Shown in pieces: positions 4,146 through 15,909 of a DNA stretch of 64,000 nucleotides. Below the pieces are notes generated by a model. That model was not told the origin of the DNA. It worked only from the letters and a program-made list of their open reading frames with translations, and searched no databases. Origin of the DNA: Bathymodiolus thermophilus thioautotrophic gill symbiont (GTDB lineage: Bacteria > Pseudomonadota > Gammaproteobacteria > PS1 > Pseudothioglobaceae); NCBI RefSeq assembly GCF_003711265.1, contig NZ_CP024634.1, forward strand, positions 2,604,001 through 2,668,000, in the 5' to 3' direction. A program made the position numbers and the translations under genes. Positions within the stretch are counted from its first letter, which is position 1. Each line of letters begins with the position of its first letter.

Positions 4146-4391
4146 ATGTTAAATATTTCAAGTGCCGATGCAAAGAACAATTTTTCTGATGTGTTAAAAC
4201 AAGTACAAAATGGCGAAAGTTTTGTGATTGAATACGGCAGAAAACAAAAAAAAATCGCCAAAATCATCCCTTACCAAGAAACAGAAATCCAACCCATTAA
4301 AATTGGTCTGTATAAAGACAACGATGCATTTGATTTTAAAATACATGATGACTGGGAAATGACTGCTGAAGAATTATTAGACTTGAAATAA
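4146..4391 (+). CDS. Phd/YefM-family antitoxin
   Basis: An 81-residue protein opening MLNISSADAKNNFSDVLKQV, the typical Phd/YefM DNA-binding N terminus (beta strand, then a helix with the KxxFSxxL pattern). An acidic C-terminal tail (HDDWEMTAEELLDLK) would bind and mask the toxin. Phd/YefM proteins usually repress their own operon. The cognate PIN toxin follows 77 bases downstream, unusually far for a pair of this kind, because a repeat element lies between them. Confidence 0.88.
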   Translation: MLNISSADAKNNFSDVLKQVQNGESFVIEYGRKQKKIAKIIPYQETEIQPIKIGLYKDNDAFDFKIHDDWEMTAEELLDLK

Positions 4392-4395
4392 TATA

Positions 4396-4467
4396 GAGGC
4401 CTTTGCATAAAATATGAACAATCATCAAAAATTGAATTCTACCAATCCATATTTATACAAAAATTTC
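4396..4467. mobile_element. Short deletion form of the GAGACC palindromic element, between antitoxin and toxin
   Basis: Left end GAGGCCTTTGCATAAAATAT and right end CATATTTATACAAAAATTTC match the inverted ends of the dispersed element, with decay (the right end differs from CATATTTATGCAAAGGTCTC at four positions). The core has shrunk to about 30 bases. It fills the antitoxin-toxin spacer and stops two bases before the toxin ATG. Confidence 0.75.
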
Positions 4468-4468
4468 A

Positions 4469-4864
4469 ATGTATATTATTGATACACATATTTTTCTTTG
4501 GCTGATAAAATACCCAGAAAAAATTAATCAGCACCAACTGCAAATATTACAAAATGCCCGAGAAAACATTTACATTAGTAATATTAGTTTTTTAGAAATT
4601 GCATTAAAGTTTCAAAAAGGAAAATTAGAATTATTTGGCTTTTCGCCCGAACAATTGGTAAAAATTGCCAAAAAAATGAACCTAAAAATAATTGATATAG
4701 ACGCACAAACCATGGCAAATTCTCACCAACTTCCCCCCGTTAAAAAACACAAAGACCCATTTGACCGATTGCTTGTTTGGCTGTGCTTGCAAAATAACTG
4801 GACCTTACTTTCAGCTGATAACAAACTTAATGAATACACACAACAAGGATTAAAGTGGATATAA
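4469..4864 (+). CDS. PIN-domain ribonuclease toxin (VapC-like)
   Basis: A 131-residue PIN protein with [10 protein letters not shown] at the N terminus (first catalytic Asp), [11 protein letters not shown] (conserved Glu), DPFDRLLVW (Asp pair) and LLSADNKL (C-terminal Asp), so the acidic metal site looks complete. Such toxins cleave RNA when the antitoxin is lost. No clear Shine-Dalgarno precedes the ATG; the mobile-element remnant forms its upstream region. The stop codon overlaps the GTG start of tyrS by 10 bases, so the pair sits directly against an essential gene. Confidence 0.88.
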
Positions 4865-6064: not shown

Positions 6065-6409
6065 GGGGATGACATGGCTTCGACGAGGAGTTGGATCTCA
6101 AGGATGCATGCCGAGGATGAGAATAACTCGTAACCGTTTCTCAAAAAAGATAGTTGCAAACGAAGACAACTACGCTCTAGCTGCATAGCTAGCCGCTCCC
6201 TTGAGATTGTCTGTATCTCTTGGAAAGCGGTCGCTTACAGACTCGCTAGGATTATTTTTTCAGGATAATTCGGTTAAAACGCACTGAAATCGCGCTTACA
6301 TCCCTGATGGTCGGGTGGTAAGTTGCTAACTCTAATAGACTAAACTAAGCATGTAGATTCTTTGTTTGAAAGTTTTCGGACGCGGGTTCAATTCCCGCCA
6401 TCTCCACCA
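6065..6409 (+). ncRNA. ssrA: Transfer-messenger RNA (tmRNA)
   Basis: Rescues stalled ribosomes by acting as tRNA-Ala and then as a message for a degradation tag. The 5' end GGGGATGACATGGCTTCGAC and the 3' end CATCTCCACCA pair to form the alanine-type acceptor stem, and a T-loop GGTTCAATTCC precedes it. The tag frame at 6156-6188 reads ANEDNYALAA then TAG, a close variant of the ANDENYALAA tag. CCA is encoded. It is a one-piece tmRNA of normal length. Confidence 0.97.
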
Positions 6410-6615
6410 AATTAGTGATTATGCTCGTTTTTAACGGGAATCTTCTTTTGTACTACCAACCAACCCCTTCCTACGCACAAACCTAGGAATCTCCCTCTTA
6501 AAAACCAACATCAAAGCATCTATCCGTTGAACTAATTTCATTTTTATGACATGGGTAAACTTTGGCATATTGTCCTTAATAAAGCACCAAAAGGCCGTAT
6601 AGAAGTTTTTACATG
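6410..6615. other. Non-coding stretch after tmRNA
   Basis: No recognisable gene. Two very short open frames exist: a 21-codon plus-strand frame ending in RIEVFTC near 6551-6616, and a 36-codon minus-strand frame at 6431-6541 rich in Arg and Lys. Neither resembles a family I know. No copy of the tmRNA 3' end was found that would mark an integration site. Confidence 0.5.
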
Positions 6616-7917
6616 TTAATATTCTGAATCAATTAGCACCAACTCACCAAAATAACCAGGATTTGAGTTGCTTTCTGCATCTGAAATAGCGTTGCGCTTT
6701 ACTCTTACTGGTATCGCACTAGCCCGAAGTGCCGATGTAATGTCTGTGTCAGCATCGCCATAGTAATATTGTATACCCTTTGCTTTAATTTCCTGTGTTT
6801 TATCATCATCCCCTGTAAAGATTACATTAGCCGTCTCTTTACCCAAAGAAAATGTTTTAATCAAACGCTGAGTTAATGTCTCAACTTCTGTTTTGGGTCT
6901 AGCCGTAATAAAATAGATCTTGTCCTTACGGGATTGATGAAAACTCAGCAAATCTCTAGCAATTTTTTTTGGTAAACTAAAGGCATCTAACACTGTATTC
7001 ATTTGTTGCCAAAACTCATTTGGTAACTCAGACCCATACTTATTTACTCCGTAATAAAAAGGAGGGGTCGAAAATAATACGGTATCATCAATATCAAACC
7101 CAACAGTTAACTTAGATGACGAGCCTAATGCTTTTTTAAAATCATCCATAGTTAAAAATTTAGATGGTTTTCTAATGTGAATAGGTTTGTTTTGTTCGCA
7201 AGCATTTTTTATTTTTGGAACATTGAGATTAATAGGGTTAATCTGTTTGTCAAAATATTGATATGTTTGCATTAAATACTGCTTGTCATCAAAACTATAT
7301 TTGGCACAAATAAACTCAGAATGATTGACATCACCAAAAGCAGCCTTTAGGTCTTGATAAGCAACATCTCGACCAACATTATTTTTAATGAAACTTTGAA
7401 TTTTTTGCTGGGAATTTAAAGCAACAATGGTATTAAAGTAGTCTTGTTGGGTTTTATTAGAGCAAGTGCCATGCTTGCGCCATTCATGTGATTCTAAATT
7501 TGGGGTTATATCAGTGTATAAAAGGCCTAATTTATGACGCAAGTCTTCTGATATTTTTCCCACATCAAAAGGCGCATCGGTACAAAATTCAGGATATGCC
7601 GAACTGTTTTTTAGATTCGGCCATAAGCCATGTGGCGCTAAAGCATTACTGTTAGTAGTTTGATAAAGTATTTCACAAGAGTCTGCAGAAGGTTCATCAA
7701 CGCCAGTTTCCATATCACGACCGTCCGATATGCATAATTCATTTAACCAAAATTGACTAAACACATAATAATCAAAACACCCTGGAAGGGTTTTAATACC
7801 CCCAGATGATCCTTCTGGAATAATTGGGCAAATGGTTTCTTTGGTTGTAACTTCAGCATAGTTATTACAGCCTTGTAGCGTTAAAAACAATAGTAATAGT
7901 AAAAACTTATTAAGCAT
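6616..7917 (-). CDS. Lipoprotein fusing RNase T2 with a class B acid phosphatase (AphA-like)
   Basis: A 433-residue protein with a lipoprotein signal (MLNKFLLLLLFL, lipobox LQGC). The first half is an RNase T2: catalytic segments HGLWPN and HEWRKHGTCS, plus an FSQFW-type N-terminal strand. The second half is a class B acid phosphatase: GFDIDDTVLFSTPPF (nucleophile and proton-donor aspartates), FITARP, YYGDADTDI and the family-typical ending FGELVLIDSEY. RNase T2 cuts RNA to nucleotides through 2',3'-cyclic intermediates, and AphA-type enzymes remove phosphate from nucleotides. I infer one surface-anchored enzyme turning external RNA into nucleosides and phosphate. ATG at 7917 is preferred to an in-frame TTG at 7929. 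It is alone, convergent to tmRNA. Confidence 0.9.
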   Translation of the reverse strand: MLNKFLLLLLFLTLQGCNNYAEVTTKETICPIIPEGSSGGIKTLPGCFDYYVFSQFWLNELCISDGRDMETGVDEPSADSCEILYQTTNSNALAPHGLWPNLKNSSAYPEFCTDAPFDVGKISEDLRHKLGLLYTDITPNLESHEWRKHGTCSNKTQQDYFNTIVALNSQQKIQSFIKNNVGRDVAYQDLKAAFGDVNHSEFICAKYSFDDKQYLMQTYQYFDKQINPINLNVPKIKNACEQNKPIHIRKPSKFLTMDDFKKALGSSSKLTVGFDIDDTVLFSTPPFYYGVNKYGSELPNEFWQQMNTVLDAFSLPKKIARDLLSFHQSRKDKIYFITARPKTEVETLTQRLIKTFSLGKETANVIFTGDDDKTQEIKAKGIQYYYGDADTDITSALRASAIPVRVKRNAISDAESNSNPGYFGELVLIDSEY

Positions 7918-7986
7918 ATTATTATTCAAAGTCGTTTAATTAGAAAAAATTATATCAGATTATTTTGCAAAGAGTTGTGGGGATAA

Positions 7987-8112
7987 AGGATGTCACCCTT
8001 TTTATGATAAAATACTCAAGGTTGCCTTGCGGGGAATGCTAGTTTTATTGATAAGTTAAGTAGCATAGCCAGTTTAAAGATGTTAGCAGGCCTAAAAAAA
8101 GTGGTAGCGCCT
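7987..8112. mobile_element. Second miniature inverted-repeat element, copy A
   Basis: The left end AAGGATGTCACCCTTTTTA and the reverse complement of the right end (AAGGCGCTACCACTTTTTTT) are imperfect inverted repeats. The same arrangement recurs at 8989-9118, also followed by TATGATA. No open frame lies inside. The pair brackets the DUF4145 gene. Confidence 0.5.
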
Positions 8113-8180
8113 TTTTTTTCAAAAAATATAAATATATTTTAATTCAATTTACTTGCTAGTTAAATATTAAAAGAGGAATT

Positions 8181-8855
8181 ATGGAGGAAGTTAAGCTAAA
8201 AGCGCAATGTAATAAATGCCTTGGAGAAACCAATCATCTTTTGCTTCATAAAGAGGATCAGCCATGGGATGAAGACATGGGGTGTGGAAATATCATCTAT
8301 GGCAGTGAGACGTTTAACATGGTTAAGTGTTGTGGGTGTGACAGTGTAAAACTAATGTACACAAGCTGGTTCTCTGGAGCATGCGATGAAGACGGACCTA
8401 TAATAGAAACCAATTACTACCCGCCAGCAATATCTAGGGCTGAGCCGAAATGGGTTTCAAGTTTAGGTGGTTTTTTTTCACAGGAACAAGAACGATATTC
8501 TTTTAAACTTCTCCGAGAAATCTATTCAGCACTACACAATGATTCTAGGTGTTTAGCGGTTATGGGCATAAGAGCGCTTCTTGAACATCTAATGATCGCC
8601 AAGGTTACCGATAAAGGAACTTTTAAAAAAAATTTAGATGCATTTCAAGCGGAGGGATATTTGTCAAAAAAACAACGAGGAATCATTGAGCCAATTCTTG
8701 AAGCAGGGCACGCAGCGATACACAGAGCATATCACCCTAGCTCAGAAGATGTTTTAACTGCAATAGAGGTAACTGAAAGTCTAGTTGAAACTATCTATGT
8801 TCATCCAAAGAAAGCAAACAAGCTTAAAGAGCGAGTTCCAAAGCGCAATGAATAA
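8181..8855 (+). CDS. DUF4145-domain protein with N-terminal zinc-ribbon-like motif
   Basis: A 224-residue protein. Residues 9-60 hold CNKC and CCGCDSV, likely a zinc ribbon. The C-terminal half (AVMGIRALLEHLMIAK, HAAIHRAYHP) matches the DUF4145 helical domain, often found near restriction or defence genes and in gene cassettes. Function is unknown. A good Shine-Dalgarno (AGAGGA) precedes the ATG. An attC-like site begins three bases after the stop, the layout of an integron cassette, and miniature elements lie on both sides. It is on the strand opposite to the next two cassette-like genes. Confidence 0.75.
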   Translation: MEEVKLKAQCNKCLGETNHLLLHKEDQPWDEDMGCGNIIYGSETFNMVKCCGCDSVKLMYTSWFSGACDEDGPIIETNYYPPAISRAEPKWVSSLGGFFSQEQERYSFKLLREIYSALHNDSRCLAVMGIRALLEHLMIAKVTDKGTFKKNLDAFQAEGYLSKKQRGIIEPILEAGHAAIHRAYHPSSEDVLTAIEVTESLVETIYVHPKKANKLKERVPKRNE

Positions 8856-8857
8856 AC

Positions 8858-8956
8858 ACTTAACAAGTGGCTCCCATCGTGCTTTTTGTGCATTTACTTC
8901 GCAAATTATTGCAAAAAAACATGTCACTTTATCTACCCCTGAGCATGGCGTTATAG
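8858..8956 (+). other. attC-like recombination site, 99 bp
   Basis: Starts with the R'' box ACTTAAC followed by AAGTGGCTC and ends with GAGCATGGCGTTATAG, so the outer AAC/GTT and inner GCTC/GAGC pair around an unpaired spacer, as in integron attC sites. The last base of the R' box departs from GTTRRRY. It lies just after the DUF4145 stop codon. Confidence 0.5.
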
Positions 8957-8988
8957 TAAAGGAGTAATGATGTTTAAAAATGGGAAAT

Positions 8989-9118
8989 AAGGGGGCACTA
9001 CCCTTTTTATGATAGAATCCTAGAAGCGTATTTGCCAACATTCCACACCACATAACCCAAAGAGGTAATCACAATTGTGATGCAGATTATTACTTTAAAA
9101 AAGTGGCGGCACCCCCTT
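8989..9118. mobile_element. Second miniature inverted-repeat element, copy B
   Basis: Left end AAGGGGGCACTACCCTTTTT; the reverse complement of the right end is AAGGGGGTGCCGCCACTTTT. Same layout as 7987-8112, including TATGATA after the left end. No open frame inside. Confidence 0.55.
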
Positions 9119-9134
9119 TTTTTTTTAGTTCCAA

Positions 9135-10121
9135 CTAGAATATAACAATTTGAGGTATATTCATTTCATCTTCTATTTCGCCTTTTTTACTCACACACTC
9201 ACTAAGTATTTTTCTTTCTGTTGCATCCAGATTTTCCCATATAGAGGGTTTAATGCATAAATCCTCACTCTCGTTTAATAAATACGAGTTTAATATCTTA
9301 GATATATTTTCTGTTTCTAAATTTATAGTCATAAAATCTGAACACATAGAATCAAATTCAGATAGCCAAACAAAAGAAATTATTGTTTTATCAATATCCG
9401 GAACAACACTTAAAGCCACTATTGGCTGAGCATTGCTAAAGTGGTTTGACATCCAGTCAGAATAATTCCCGCGTAAGAGAGAAATACAGGTTGTCGATGA
9501 TATGCCAATGTTTTTGGGGATTATAAAAGAATTGTGTGATATTTTAGAATAATCACCTGTTTCATAACAATCAAATAATTTCTCAAAATAATATGGTGCA
9601 TCTATATCAAGAAAAGCCTTCATCCCCCCTATATGACGATTATATTGTCTAGCGCCCTCATCTCCGAATAAGTGCTGACACTCTTTATAAATACCTTTTG
9701 ACCTATCATGAGTATTTCTTTTATTGGCATACTCATAACTAAAACATCTTAGAAAAAGCAATAAGCTATGTTCATCTAAATTTGCTTCTAAATTCCCATT
9801 TTCTATTGGTTCAAATATACTTGCATCATGTTCATTACAATAACCAACAAAAGTTGATGCTTCAGCTATTTGCTTTTTTTGGAAGATATTAAAATTACCC
9901 TGTCGGCTAGCCATGAAGCTTTTATAAATATTCTTTTCTACTGAAATAACTTTTAAATCTTTTGCTATAGAATTAAGCTGATGTTTTTTTTGCTGAGAGT
10001 GCGAGCGTATACCCTTCTTTGAACATGATGGAAGCATGCATTTATACTTGATGCGACTTGCTAATTTCTGAGCTTTACCAAGCCCCTTTTGTATCAACTT
10101 AATCTTTTGTGTTTCACGCAT
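9135..10121 (-). CDS. Uncharacterised protein with Cys/His zinc-binding-like N terminus
   Basis: A 328-residue protein I cannot assign to a characterised family. The N terminus has CMLPSCSKKGIRSHSQ and later GYCNEHDASIFEPIE. This Cys-x4-Cys, Ser-His and Cys-x2-His-Asp pattern occurs in unannotated bacterial proteins and suggests a treble-clef/HNH-like zinc fold. The rest is mixed alpha/beta without visible membrane segments. It lies downstream of an attC-like site on the same strand as the next upstream gene, so it may be a gene cassette. Codon use is AT-richer than the housekeeping genes. Confidence 0.6.
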   Translation of the reverse strand: MRETQKIKLIQKGLGKAQKLASRIKYKCMLPSCSKKGIRSHSQQKKHQLNSIAKDLKVISVEKNIYKSFMASRQGNFNIFQKKQIAEASTFVGYCNEHDASIFEPIENGNLEANLDEHSLLLFLRCFSYEYANKRNTHDRSKGIYKECQHLFGDEGARQYNRHIGGMKAFLDIDAPYYFEKLFDCYETGDYSKISHNSFIIPKNIGISSTTCISLLRGNYSDWMSNHFSNAQPIVALSVVPDIDKTIISFVWLSEFDSMCSDFMTINLETENISKILNSYLLNESEDLCIKPSIWENLDATERKILSECVSKKGEIEDEMNIPQIVIF

Positions 10122-10174
10122 TTTGCATACTATTCCTAATTGAATCTATGAACATAATGTAGTGCTACTTTTTA

Positions 10175-10244
10175 ATCTAACGACTAACTTGAGAAATAGT
10201 TTTCCCGTTAGGGGAAACTATTTTTCTCCAAGGTTTTGTTAGAA
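10175..10244 (-). other. attC-like recombination site, 70 bp
   Basis: Read on the minus strand it begins TTCTAACAAAACCTTGGAGAA and ends TTCTCAAGTTAGTCGTTAGAT. CTTGGAGAA pairs with TTCTCAAG leaving one extra G, a hallmark of attC folded strands, and an inner AATAGTTTCCCC stem continues the hairpin. The stop codon of the upstream gene (10239-11360) lies inside the R'' box, as is common in cassettes. Confidence 0.6.
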
Positions 10245-11360
10245 TCTTATACACTCAACAAAACCTGAATTTAAATCTTCTGTAACTAAAATAGGATAAC
10301 TATTTTGAACTACTATTTCTGATATTAACTTATAAGACGGATGCCCATAACTATTTTTTTCTCCAACAGAGATGGGGCACCAATAGTATTTATCATCAAG
10401 GATGGATTTGTCAAAACTTTTTAGATCTCCATGATGTGGTATTTGAATTGTTCCTACACTTTCCCAAAAAAATTTAAAGATTGATTTGATTTTTACTTTA
10501 TTCAAATCAGTGTCACCAGTATATATACAACTTACTCTATGCCTTTGTTTCACCATTCTATACCATCGAATATGATGAAATTCTGCATAACATCTAAAAT
10601 ATCTATAAGGGCAATCAAAACAAAACGCCTCTTGTTTACAATCTTTATACAAACAATTTATTCCAGAATAAAGTAACATAGAATTTTGATTTATATTACC
10701 CTTAACTTTTGTGTAAATCTTTTTTATTTCTGTGCGACGAGATACAATTTCATCAATAGTGTATTTTGAATCATTTTTTAATTTTTCAACATCAAACCCA
10801 CTGCTTCTTAATAATTTTTCAAGTTCAATCTTTCTAGAATTACACAGGTAATTGTATGGAATAAATACCCACTTATAAGAATTAAAAGTTTTTCTTAAGA
10901 TTGACCCACTTTGTATATTCGTAGTTTTTAAGTTTTCTAGATCAATCGTAATATTATCATTTATTGGTCTTTCATTATCTTCTGACTCTTGGACAGTTAT
11001 TATTTGAGTTTCTTGGCCAAAAAACTCTTGAGGATTTTCGATTAAAGTCCAAATTTGAAAATCTAAAGCTTTATATAAGTTGATTAACAATGTTTTTTCT
11101 TCATCATGTAATAGTGGCATAACAACTTTTTTTATTTTAGTATGCTCATTTAATGTCTTAATTTTATTAACATGGTCGTAATCAAAATGTGATATAAATA
11201 ATATATCTATAACTTCATCTTTTTTAAATGCTCGTTCAACAACTTTATTGGCTTCTAGAGTGTCCTTCCAATTTCCACAATCATAAACAATATTGAAATT
11301 ATTATGCCTTTCAGAATAAAAAGCACCTTGTCCAATCGGATGAAAAATTCGTTCTATCAA
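10239..11360 (-). CDS. Metallo-beta-lactamase-fold hydrolase, ComEC-like domain
   Basis: A 373-residue cytosolic protein. The metal site is visible in SHFDYDHVN (HxHxDH variant with Asp in place of the second His), YTGDTDL, QIPHHGDLKSF and SYGHPS, the pattern of the MBL domain related to the C-terminal part of ComEC. A cysteine cluster (CLYKDCKQEAFCFDCPY) may bind zinc. Proteins of this type are frequent in defence loci and gene cassettes; the substrate is unknown. attC-like sites lie on both sides in the same orientation. Confidence 0.75.
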   Translation of the reverse strand: MIERIFHPIGQGAFYSERHNNFNIVYDCGNWKDTLEANKVVERAFKKDEVIDILFISHFDYDHVNKIKTLNEHTKIKKVVMPLLHDEEKTLLINLYKALDFQIWTLIENPQEFFGQETQIITVQESEDNERPINDNITIDLENLKTTNIQSGSILRKTFNSYKWVFIPYNYLCNSRKIELEKLLRSSGFDVEKLKNDSKYTIDEIVSRRTEIKKIYTKVKGNINQNSMLLYSGINCLYKDCKQEAFCFDCPYRYFRCYAEFHHIRWYRMVKQRHRVSCIYTGDTDLNKVKIKSIFKFFWESVGTIQIPHHGDLKSFDKSILDDKYYWCPISVGEKNSYGHPSYKLISEIVVQNSYPILVTEDLNSGFVECIRF

Positions 11361-11376
11361 AATGCTCCTTATGTAA

Positions 11377-11468
11377 TACTAACGCCTTGCTCAGCGGTAT
11401 AGAAAATCGTGCCGATTACTCTTCAATTAGAACGCTTTTTTGTATCCAGCCGTAGCAATTTGTTAGAC
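11377..11468 (-). other. attC-like recombination site, 92 bp
   Basis: On the minus strand it begins with R'' GTCTAAC, then AAATTGCT, and ends AGCAAGGCGTTAGTA. AAC/GTT and TTGCT/AGCAA pair across a three-base unpaired spacer, the standard attC arrangement. It precedes the MBL gene start by 16 bases. Confidence 0.6.
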
Positions 11469-11523
11469 TTAAATATAACAGATATACAGAAAGATTATAT
11501 CATAACACGCACAGCTAGCATGT

Positions 11524-11657
11524 TTACACATCTAATTTCAAAACATCCGCATTAAATAACTCAGTATTTTCACTAGATAATAACAACTCTCCATTATAAT
11601 TTAGAGAATTTTTTTAATAGCTCTTGCTCAATAACCCTTGCATCTAAACCAACTTCA
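11524..11657 (-). pseudogene. Gene fragment, frameshifted, family unknown
   Basis: Two minus-strand frames together read like the end of one protein: EVGLDARVIEQELLKKF then, after a frame change near 11598, NGELLLSSENTELFNADV and KLDV followed by TAA. No intact start is found. It may be the remains of another cassette gene. The surrounding bases 11470-11760 hold nothing else that I recognise. Confidence 0.3.
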
Positions 11658-11762
11658 AAATTCTATATACATTACCAAAAATCCTTTAGTTTACGGATTT
11701 TAAATAAGAAAAATTAAATTTTTGTCTGGGGTTGCTGGGGTATTATAATTGTGCCAATCATC

Positions 11763-11782
11763 CATATTTATGCAAAGGTCTC
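11763..11782. mobile_element. Solo right end of the GAGACC element
   Basis: CATATTTATGCAAAGGTCTC, identical to the ends of full copies, preceded by CCAATCATC. No left end is found nearby. It lies 10 bases past the rhlE stop codon. Confidence 0.65.
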
Positions 11783-11791
11783 AAATAAGCA

Positions 11792-13078
11792 TTATTTTTT
11801 ATTCCCCCAAAAACTTTTTTTCTTTTTGGCTTTGTTTTCTTGAGAATTGCTATTTTTGCCATATCTCGGCTTATTGCGAGGGTTGCTCTTCTTGGGTTTT
11901 TTATTTTTTGGTGGCAATAGGTTTTTGCTGGATTCTGGCAGGTTGTGGTCGGGGATGAAGTCGTCTATCATGATGCGATCGAGTTTTTTCTGGGTGAGGC
12001 GTTCGATGTCGAAAAGCTGTTTGGCTTCATCGGCGCTAACTAATGAAATGGCTTCGCCTTTTGAGCCTGCACGGCCTGTTCTACCGATACGATGAACATA
12101 GTCTTCTGGCACATTTGGTAGGTCAAAATTGACCACGAGTGGGAGTTCGACGATGTCAATGCCACGAGCGGCAATATCGGTGGCGACTAGGACATTAACT
12201 TTGCCTTTTTTGAAGTCGTCAAGCGCTCTGGTGCGTGCGCCTTGGCTTTTGTTGCCGTGAATGGCGGCGGCGGTGATGCCGCGTTTTCCGAGTTGTGTGG
12301 CAATGCGATTGGCGCCGTGTTTGGTGCGACTAAAGACCAATACTTGGTACCAGCTGTGCTCTTGAATGAGGTGGGTGAGTAGTGCTTGTTTTTTGGATTT
12401 GTCAACGGGGTGAATCCATTGCTTGACTGATTTTACTGTGGTGTTTCGTGGGGTTACTGAGATTTCTACGGGGTTGTTGACTAGAGTTTTTGCTAACTTT
12501 CTGATGTCATCTGAAAAAGTGGCTGAAAACATTAGGGTTTGTCTATTTTCAGGCAAAATCTTTAAAATCTTCTTAATATCATGAATAAAACCCATGTCTA
12601 ACATTCTGTCGGCTTCATCCATTACTAAGATTTCTAATTGATCAAACTTCACTGCATTTTGTGAATATAAATCCAATAATCTGCCAGGAGTTGCCACTAA
12701 AATATCCACGCCACTTCTGAGCTTTTGCATTTGTGGATTGATTTTTACGCCACCAAATACCACGGTTGATTTGAGTGGCAAGTGCTTGCCATAAGTGGCT
12801 ACACTATCATTAACTTGGGCGGCCAATTCACGCGTTGGCGTTAGGATAAGTGTGCGCACTTGGTTGGATTTTGCCAGTGTTCCTTTGGATAAAATTTGCA
12901 AGATTGGTAAGGTGAAACCTGCGGTTTTTCCTGTGCCTGTTTGTGCGGCAGCCATTACATCTTTGCCTTGCAATACCGCAGGAATTGCCTGCTCTTGGAT
13001 TGCTGATGGCTTATCGTAGCCTTTTTTAGTAACAGCGTCGAGAATAGAATCTGATAAACCTAGTTTAGAAAAACCCAT
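11792..13078 (-). CDS. rhlE: DEAD-box RNA helicase RhlE
   Basis: ATP-dependent RNA helicase for ribosome assembly and RNA turnover. Motifs are complete: Q motif near residues 5-28, AQTGTGKT (motif I), PTRELAAQ (Ia), VMDEADRML (II), SATF (III), [12 protein letters not shown] (IV), [11 protein letters not shown] (V) and [10 protein letters not shown] (VI). The basic Lys/Asn-rich tail (about 385-428) is typical of RhlE and would bind RNA. Confidence 0.93.
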
Positions 13079-13128: not shown

Positions 13129-13347
13129 AAGACCTTTGTATAAATATAGATGATTAGCAAAATTCAATTTTTGCCCTCTTAAAGAGTGCTGTGTAGCGTT
13201 AACTCAATTGGTGATTTCTTTAAATCTTGTTTTAATAAGAGAGGAACGGTTATAAACCGTTCCCTACGGTTGGGTATTGTTGAAAAAAATTGTCGAATGG
13301 GTAAAAGGTGGGTGCTTGATGATTGTTCATATTTATGTAAAGGTCTC
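13129..13347. mobile_element. Long form of the GAGACC element (about 219 bp)
   Basis: Ends AAGACCTTTGTATAAATATA and CATATTTATGTAAAGGTCTC match the standard ends. The interior is longer and contains a perfect hairpin GGAACGGTT-ATA-AACCGTTCC at 13243-13263. A TATAAT follows immediately at 13348-13353, seven bases before the DUF1289 start. Confidence 0.7.
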
Positions 13348-13359
13348 TATAATATATTT

Positions 13360-13759: not shown

Positions 13760-15028
13760 CTACGCTCCGAACGCACCTTTCAGTGCAAAGAAAAATAAAA
13801 TAGACATCAATGCACCTGCTGGCAAGGTGATGAGCCATGATAAAAAGATTTTGTTAATCATACGCAAATCTAATGCCGCCATACCTCTGGCTAAACCAAC
13901 GCCCAATACTGCACCTACCAACACTTGCGTTGTTGAAACAGGCAAGCCTGTGCCTGAGGCAATGACCACAGTGGTTGCCGCTGCGAGCGTCGCTGCAAAG
14001 CCTCGTGAAGGGGTTAATTGGGTAATGCCAGTGCCGATTGTGGCAATGACTTTATGTCCATAAGTAACCAAACCAAGCACAATACCAACGCCACCTACCA
14101 ACAAAATACCAACTGGCAATGCACTTTTAGAGCCAATAACGCCTCCGCTTTCAATAACACCGTAGATTGCTGCCAATGGGCCAATCGCATTTGCCACATC
14201 ATTCGACCCATGTGCAAATGCCATTGCTGCTGCGGTAACAATCATTAATACGCTAAATACTCGCTCCATAGAGGTAAAGTGGAAATCTCTATTTTCATTA
14301 GGGTCAAGATGAATACGGCGAATAACAATAGCACCAATAATGGCAACCAATAGTCCAAATATGGTCGCCAATAAATAACTTGTCATCATATCAAATTCCA
14401 AGCCAACATGCTTAAGTCCTTTAAAAATTGTGACCAAAGAAATGATAAAGCCAACTAAAAACATATAAAACGGCACATATTTTTTGGCATTTTCAAAAGG
14501 TTTGGAAGTGTCAATAATCAAACTTTGCAAACTCTTAAACAAAACAAACGCAATACTGCCCGCTAAAATTGGCGACACAATCCAACTCATCGCAATGTTA
14601 CCAACTTTACCCCAAGCAACAGCATCAACGCCAATACCTACTGCACCAAACCCAACAATAGCGCCAACAATGGAATGTGTTGTTGACACTGGCCAACCTA
14701 AAGAGGAGGCAATCATCAGCCAAACGCCTGCTGATAATAAGGATGCCAACATCCCGTAAACCAACAAATGAGGATCATTGGTAAAAAGAGAAGCGTCCAA
14801 GATGCCTTTACGAATTGTTGCCGTTACCTCTCCGCCTGCCAATACCGCACCTGCAAATTCAAAAATAACCGCAATAACAATCGCTTGTTTAATCGTAATT
14901 GCACCCGAACCAACCGATGTACCCATCGCATTTGCCACATCATTCGCACCCACGCCCCACGCCATAAATAACCCAAAAGCAATAGCAAGAATTAATAAAA
15001 TGCCACCGTAATTTGCAATAATTTCCAT
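13760..15028 (-). CDS. Inorganic phosphate transporter, PiT family
   Basis: A 422-residue integral membrane protein with about ten membrane segments and the duplicated PiT signatures GANDVANAMGTSVGSGA (N-terminal) and GSNDVANAIGPLAAI (C-terminal), each with a following PVSTT-type motif (WPVSTTHS, LPVSTTQV). Imports phosphate coupled to H+ or Na+. A DUF47/PhoU-like gene lies just upstream on the same strand, the usual partner pair. Confidence 0.95.
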   Translation of the reverse strand: MEIIANYGGILLILAIAFGLFMAWGVGANDVANAMGTSVGSGAITIKQAIVIAVIFEFAGAVLAGGEVTATIRKGILDASLFTNDPHLLVYGMLASLLSAGVWLMIASSLGWPVSTTHSIVGAIVGFGAVGIGVDAVAWGKVGNIAMSWIVSPILAGSIAFVLFKSLQSLIIDTSKPFENAKKYVPFYMFLVGFIISLVTIFKGLKHVGLEFDMMTSYLLATIFGLLVAIIGAIVIRRIHLDPNENRDFHFTSMERVFSVLMIVTAAAMAFAHGSNDVANAIGPLAAIYGVIESGGVIGSKSALPVGILLVGGVGIVLGLVTYGHKVIATIGTGITQLTPSRGFAATLAAATTVVIASGTGLPVSTTQVLVGAVLGVGLARGMAALDLRMINKIFLSWLITLPAGALMSILFFFALKGAFGA

Positions 15029-15086
15029 AATTTACCTCTTTTTTTATTTAATAAGTTATATATACTATAATTATTTATAACTTCAT

Positions 15087-15764
15087 TCATTTAGCGAGTA
15101 ACACTTCTAAACGAGAGCCAACTTTTTGAGCTGCATCCGCCAACTCACCGAGCCACTCAACTGCTCGATAATAAAACATCACATCAACAGGTGGGTAATC
15201 CTCTTCCAAGGGAAATAACTTAGTGCGAATTTCGTGCTGAATTCTATCCGATTGACTTTCAAGTTCATTAACTTCTGCAATAATAGAGCCAACAACTTTG
15301 CGCTCTCTATTGCCAAATGCAGTTTCCATTAGTTCATCCAATTCATTCACTGCTTTAAGCGCCGCTGCTGAAGTTTTAATACACACATCGGTAAGCTCAA
15401 TCACATCGTCAGAGATTTCATCTGGCAAAGTCATTTTGCGATTAATTATTAATCCTGAAACATCTTTGGTGGTGTTGGCAATAGAATCTTGAATCAACAA
15501 CAAGTCCAATAAATCCCGACGAGAAAACGGCATCATAAAGGTGGAAGGTAGGCTTAAACGCAGTTCTTTTTTCAAAACATCAGCCTCACCCTCTTTGTGT
15601 CCAATGGTTTTTCTAATTTCTTCAGCGGCCTTCCAATCTTTTTCATGGATAGCAATCATAAAGCCTTTCAACTCTGAAATGCATGAATGAACGCTCGTCA
15701 TGTGCTTTTGTAGTGGGCTAATTGGTGATTTTCCAAACAGTCCATCAATAATACTTTTTGCCAT
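15087..15764 (-). CDS. DUF47 family PhoU-like protein
   Basis: A 225-residue all-helical protein (MAKSIIDGLFGKSP) of the TIGR00153/DUF47 family, distantly related to PhoU. These are found next to PiT transporters and are thought to modulate phosphate uptake. Conserved features include ESQSDRIQHEI and FYYRAVEWLGELADAA. The start at 15764 is chosen for its Shine-Dalgarno GGAGGAGT. It forms an operon with the transporter, 58 bases apart. Confidence 0.9.
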   Translation of the reverse strand: MAKSIIDGLFGKSPISPLQKHMTSVHSCISELKGFMIAIHEKDWKAAEEIRKTIGHKEGEADVLKKELRLSLPSTFMMPFSRRDLLDLLLIQDSIANTTKDVSGLIINRKMTLPDEISDDVIELTDVCIKTSAAALKAVNELDELMETAFGNRERKVVGSIIAEVNELESQSDRIQHEIRTKLFPLEEDYPPVDVMFYYRAVEWLGELADAAQKVGSRLEVLLAK

Positions 15765-15909
15765 CTTTTCTACTCCTCCCAAATAAAGCGAATTTTAACA
15801 AAGAATCTTTGTGCGTCAAGTTTTATATTCAATTTTTTTAACCCTCCATTCAAGTTCGTAAAATGGTTATAATTTAAGACTGTTATTTTTAATGCGAATT
15901 AACCTAATT

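Follow-up and report, generated by a model that had tools for sequence, protein, structure and literature searches.

The window, a stretch of 64,000 nucleotides from the genome of a sulfur-oxidizing (thioautotrophic) symbiont in the gills of the deep-sea mussel Bathymodiolus thermophilus, carries a gene whose single reading frame joins an RNase T2 domain to a following domain of the class B acid phosphatase (AphA) type. The fusion is genuine and has no second example in the collections that we searched. What is new is the combination, as each part was already known with its own role in the periplasm. We mildly favor the reading that the product is an envelope-tethered two-step enzyme, which would degrade RNA to 3'-nucleotides and then remove their phosphate.

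A single reading frame with two enzyme domains

The fusion gene occupies positions 6616..7929 on the minus strand and encodes 437 amino acids from a TTG codon at 7929. The initial annotation used the ATG at 7917, four codons further on, which yields 433 amino acids. The 437-codon frame is free of interruption and contains one signal peptide with a lipobox, then the RNase T2 domain and then the AphA domain. About 10 residues link the two domains, counted from the last cysteine of the RNase T2 half (residue 244) to the start of the AphA match (residues 251-255). Inspection of the residues at the junction revealed no hydrophobic segment or second signal sequence between the domains, and both alternative frames are full of stops at this point. 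Hence, the AphA half, which lacks a signal peptide of its own, relies on the RNase half for export.

We considered whether an error in assembly or sequencing had merged two genes, as a PacBio-only assembly could carry indels (PMC9789115). The genome containing the window is one closed contig of 2,832,685 bp, and the PacBio genome of EPR9N, the thioautotrophic gill symbiont of B. thermophilus, was reported to be circular and to represent a single strain (PMC9789115). The short in-frame junction without a second signal sequence makes an assembly join unlikely, the other frames are closed, no signal peptide would be available to a separate second half, and the two halves are similar in composition. 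On these grounds we rejected a frameshift or assembly join between the halves, a concern raised in the initial annotation, and regard an artefact of either kind as very improbable.

At the N-terminus, a signal peptide with a lipobox (residues 5-21; 7867..7917, minus strand) ends at Cys21, the predicted site of lipidation. The sequence LLLLFLTLQGC fits a PS00013-like pattern, which permits the glutamine at position -2. The residue at position +2 after the cysteine is asparagine and not aspartate, so that retention in the inner membrane by aspartate is not predicted. Thus, the fusion is predicted to be a lipid-tethered protein of the cell envelope. It had initially been described as a surface protein, which goes too far: from the lipobox and the +2 residue one can predict lipidation and sorting to the outer membrane but no more, and the counterparts of the two halves in enteric bacteria such as E. 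coli, RNase I and AphA, are separate periplasmic enzymes.

The RNase T2 domain spans residues 52-229 (7243..7776, minus strand) and matches the Pfam family Ribonuclease_T2 (PF00445) with an E-value of 4.4e-24 and 86.1 bits, against a cut-off of 26. CAS I (HGLWP, residues 100-104, 7618..7632) and CAS II (HEWRKHGTC, residues 148-156, 7462..7488), both read on the minus strand, are present with all catalytic residues of the family (H100, E149, K152, and H153). Four cysteines, C66, C116, C156, and C244, are invariant across an alignment of eight sequences and are candidates for the disulfide cysteines of this half. In a sequence search of the PDB, E. coli RNase I matched the first half of the fusion with an E-value of 2e-9, and plant T2 RNases matched as well; depending on the stretch used, the best match was either RNase I or the plant RNase MC1.

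The AphA-type domain covers residues 251-437 (6619..7179, minus strand), as delimited with PF03767, TIGR01672, and the sequence of solved AphA. The Pfam family Acid_phosphat_B (PF03767, HAD subfamily IIIB) matches residues 271-399 with an E-value of 7.5e-12 and 45.7 bits, against a cut-off of 27. The NCBIfam model for AphA (TIGR01672) aligns over residues 251-437 with an E-value of 4.4e-45, but its 154.1 bits remain below the equivalog cut-off of 195.8. By sequence, the phosphatase half is therefore an AphA-like domain and not an AphA equivalog. Solved E. coli AphA (1n8n, 2b82) matches residues 255-437 at 5e-33 with about 38-40% identity, and the match reaches the end of AphA. All on the minus strand, the domain contains HAD motif I (FDIDDT, residues 278-283, 7081..7098) with the nucleophile Asp279 as identified by alignment, HAD motif II (FITAR, 340-344, 6898..6912), Lys377 (6799..6801), and HAD motif IV (YGDADTD, 390-396, 6742..6762).

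Asp279, Asp281, Thr342, Arg344, Lys377, Asp392, and Asp396 of the fusion align with Asp44, Asp46, Thr112, Arg114, Lys152, Asp167, and Asp171 of AphA. The initial annotation had considered that catalytic residues might be lost on structural alignment; in sequence alignments those of both halves are in place, whereas the surroundings of the phosphatase site differ. According to a pairwise HMMER alignment, AphA Gly113 is replaced by Ala343, Tyr70 has no counterpart and falls in a four-residue gap of the fusion, and Tyr193 aligns with Ala418. The fusion has two short deletions relative to AphA. Tyr70 and Tyr193 are residues that we take to line the substrate pocket of AphA. The catalytic core of the phosphatase half thus appears intact, but its pocket may be altered and its substrate preference may differ. 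Structure models of the fusion were of low confidence (pLDDT of 34 from the single sequence and 41 from the eight-sequence alignment) and were discarded. Taken together, the Pfam and PDB sequence matches and the motif positions bear out the initial description of one chain with both domains, complete catalytic signatures, and a lipobox.

Distribution and genomic setting

Domain and protein searches of 83 genomes of the same family, including that of the window, identified each of the two domain families once, in the fusion gene. There was no second fusion in this set, which includes genomes of other mussel symbionts from the genus. In partly overlapping samples from the class (369 genomes) and the phylum (398 genomes), RNase T2 and AphA were numerous as separate genes, and no fusion was present. 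No place in 72,556 plasmid records or 50,697 phages covered 80% of the fusion protein, and no fusion was present in viral contigs. Two pattern scans of the genomes of 84,980 species, with one genome per species, patterns that miss divergent members, and UniProt and the metagenome collection outside their scope, returned seven RNase T2 relatives and no fusion. Two rows of the scan alignment (A2) consist of separate Piscirickettsia RNase T2 and AphA sequences placed end to end; they served as query only and are not evidence for a fusion. Our literature search found no paper that describes an RNase T2-acid phosphatase fusion. The initial annotation did not know the pairing as described, and this has held up, with no second example either published or in the sequence collections searched.

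A phylogeny of bacterial RNase T2 sequences places the RNase half together with the RNase T2 of Piscirickettsia, with a support of 99/97. Two short pieces of plant RNases, when added, fall in the same group as the fusion and Piscirickettsia with weaker support; long branches occur in both trees. For the AphA half, the branch is too long to allow placement: its preferred position with Paracoccus and Neorhizobium was weakly supported (45/73), and a clade with Piscirickettsia was not rejected (p = 0.376). Among the AphA homologues, that of Deinococcus sp. QL22 (locus L082, 1417-2138) is annotated as two overlapping reading frames and adjoins genes for phosphonate transport and a polyphosphate polymerase.

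Comparison with relatives places the fusion gene within a low-GC insertion with approximate boundaries at 6416..11791. The insertion is flanked on the left by ssrA, which encodes tmRNA (6065..6409, plus strand), and on the other side by a DEAD-box helicase gene (11792-13078). The spacing between ssrA and the helicase gene is 5.4 kb in the window and about 85-220 bp in four relatives compared. The GC3 values of the two fusion halves (0.25 and 0.28) are within the range of the other insertion genes (0.18-0.32), while seven surrounding core genes have values of 0.32-0.43. The similar composition of the halves is consistent with their joint arrival, and the gene was probably acquired by horizontal transfer within the 5.4-kb segment. 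Canonical integrase-mediated insertion at ssrA found no support: the 3' end of the tmRNA gene is not duplicated in the window, there is no clear flanking repeat, and no integrase was recognized among the ORFs of the insertion.

The insertion also encodes a DUF4145 protein and, as possible defence or mobile cargo, an unknown protein next to a protein with a metallo-beta-lactamase (MBL) fold (9135-10121 and 10239-11360, minus strand). A Vibrio parahaemolyticus plasmid encodes a homologue of the unknown protein with 44% identity, close to FRG-domain and MqsRA genes, and the MBL-fold protein gives weak PADLOC matches. These neighbors are separate genes on either strand and form no evident operon with the fusion gene. 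Upstream of the fusion gene, a consensus scan for a promoter performed no better than on shuffled sequences, and nothing resembling a PhoB box exceeded chance, so that nothing ties the fusion to phosphate starvation. The initial annotation pointed to a PiT phosphate transporter pair 6 kb away, which consists of a PiT gene and a PhoU-like partner (13760-15782). This pair is conserved across the genus and adjoins ssrA and the helicase gene in relatives without the fusion; its proximity is therefore no evidence of a link with the fusion. Between the helicase and PiT genes lie interspersed repeat elements (13130-13180 and 13284-13358) that have dozens of copies in this genome and in other members of the genus. 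On the other side of the insertion, between proA and tyrS, a gene for a Phd-family antitoxin with an NCBIfam match precedes one for a small PIN-like protein without such a match (4146-4864, plus strand), a probable toxin-antitoxin pair.

Proposed activity and alternative explanations

From what is known of the two families, the RNase T2 half would cut single-stranded RNA via 2',3'-cyclic phosphates, yielding 3'-mononucleotides and ends with a 3'-phosphate. With Mg2+, the AphA half would then strip the 3'-phosphate, so that the net products would be nucleosides and inorganic phosphate. Mononucleotides with a 5'- or 3'-phosphate are strongly preferred as substrates by class B acid phosphatases, which leave diesters intact (PMC8475336), and the RNase T2 of E. 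coli, RNase I, is known to form 2',3'-cyclic nucleotides from RNA (PMC8765455). Because AphA enzymes do not cut diesters, the RNase half must first open the 2',3'-cyclic intermediate. Should 2',3'-cyclic nucleotides be its main product, they would be of no use to the AphA half; our proposal has the RNase half also complete the ring opening to 3'-phosphates. More tentatively, the protein may reside in the outer membrane, and the RNA could come from lysed bacteria or from the host bacteriocyte.

The symbiont might use the phosphate and not the nucleoside. Nucleosides had been put forward as a useful product alongside phosphate, but family searches of the genome detected neither the C-terminal domain of CNT nucleoside transporters (PF07662) nor the PNP_UDP_1 phosphorylase family (PF01048). 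Judged from these two families, phosphate is a likelier gain than nucleosides. The main text of a metaproteomic paper on the mussel symbiosis mentions neither an RNase T2 nor an AphA enzyme (PMC6976577). Joining the RNase and phosphatase steps in one protein suggests that both act on the same substrate stream, and the fusion could give an uncultured mussel symbiont a concrete way to take phosphate from RNA outside its cytoplasm. We are doubtful of the fullest version of this idea, in which an intracellular chemosynthetic symbiont would have acquired one outer-membrane chain whose coupled active sites draw phosphate from host or bacterial RNA, an undescribed class of bifunctional enzyme. The fusion is a rearrangement of known parts in one genome, and its wider importance hinges on more strains and on enzyme activity.

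Several features of the protein would also fit a chain in which only one half is enzymatically useful, either an envelope RNase joined to an AphA domain of drifted specificity or an AphA-type phosphatase whose RNase partner has degenerated. Both halves have long branches in the trees, pocket residues of the AphA half are altered alongside its two short deletions, and its score lies under the equivalog cut-off. We nevertheless consider this explanation unlikely, as neither half has lost a catalytic residue and the AT-rich frame runs through 437 codons with no stop.

Other explanations accept two working domains and assign them a different purpose. Instead of scavenging nutrients, the protein could interact with the host, an exposed or released RNase T2 acting on the RNA of the mussel bacteriocyte and the phosphatase on host nucleotides. 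The symbiont is intracellular in gill cells (PMC5581435, PMC9789115), Bathymodiolus symbionts have many horizontally acquired interaction genes (PMC4612132), and the nearest bacterial relatives of the RNase half come from Piscirickettsia, with the short plant pieces joining the group at weaker support. However, the lipid anchor favors attachment to the cell, and the genomes of other mussel symbionts in the genus lack the fusion, which leaves a host-directed role rather improbable in our assessment. Less probable still is that the insertion is a mobile set of defence genes, whose envelope RNase and phosphatase would degrade invading nucleic acid or the RNA of competitors. The weak PADLOC matches of the MBL-fold protein and the plasmid homologue near toxin-antitoxin genes point in this direction, but the fusion itself matches no PADLOC family, and its neighbors lack the arrangement of an operon.

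Comparison with known systems

Several known systems resemble the fusion in one respect and differ in another. Rheinheimera (loci L030 and L031) also has a bacterial RNase T2 in one open frame with a second hydrolase-like domain, but there the partner is an N-terminal ComEC-like domain with an MBL fold and not a phosphatase. The two Rheinheimera frames are located at 4834-6633 in L030 and 786-2657 in L031 and measure 618 and 634 amino acids from stop to stop. The MBL-fold protein of the insertion is only 34% identical to the MBL domain of the Rheinheimera fusion, over 77 residues. Piscirickettsia (locus L028; genomes G255, G139, and G354) has both families in one genome and an RNase T2 that is the sister of the fusion half; its genes for the two enzymes are not fused and lie at a great distance from each other, 1.1 Mb on one contig in G354.

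The individual halves can be compared with known enzymes. The fusion shares CAS I, CAS II, and the conserved cysteines with RNase I of E. coli (PDB 2ea1) and with the family PF00445, which it matches at 86 bits. RNase I, however, stands alone and has no phosphatase attached, and in the bacterial tree the fusion domain is nearest to the RNase T2 of Piscirickettsia. With E. coli AphA, the fusion shares the four motif aspartates and the equivalents of Thr112, Arg114, and Lys152. In E. coli, AphA is a soluble protein of the periplasm that is encoded separately and forms homotetramers with Mg2+-dependent activity, while the fusion domain forms the C-terminal half of a predicted lipoprotein. In this last respect the fusion is reminiscent of lipoprotein e(P4), a class C acid phosphatase (TIGR01533) related to class B, which is a membrane-anchored lipoprotein nucleotide phosphatase (PMC8475336, PMC10694654). 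Lipoprotein e(P4) has a single domain and no RNase, however, and TIGR01533 matches the fusion only weakly (1.5e-6), its phosphatase half being clearly class B by score.
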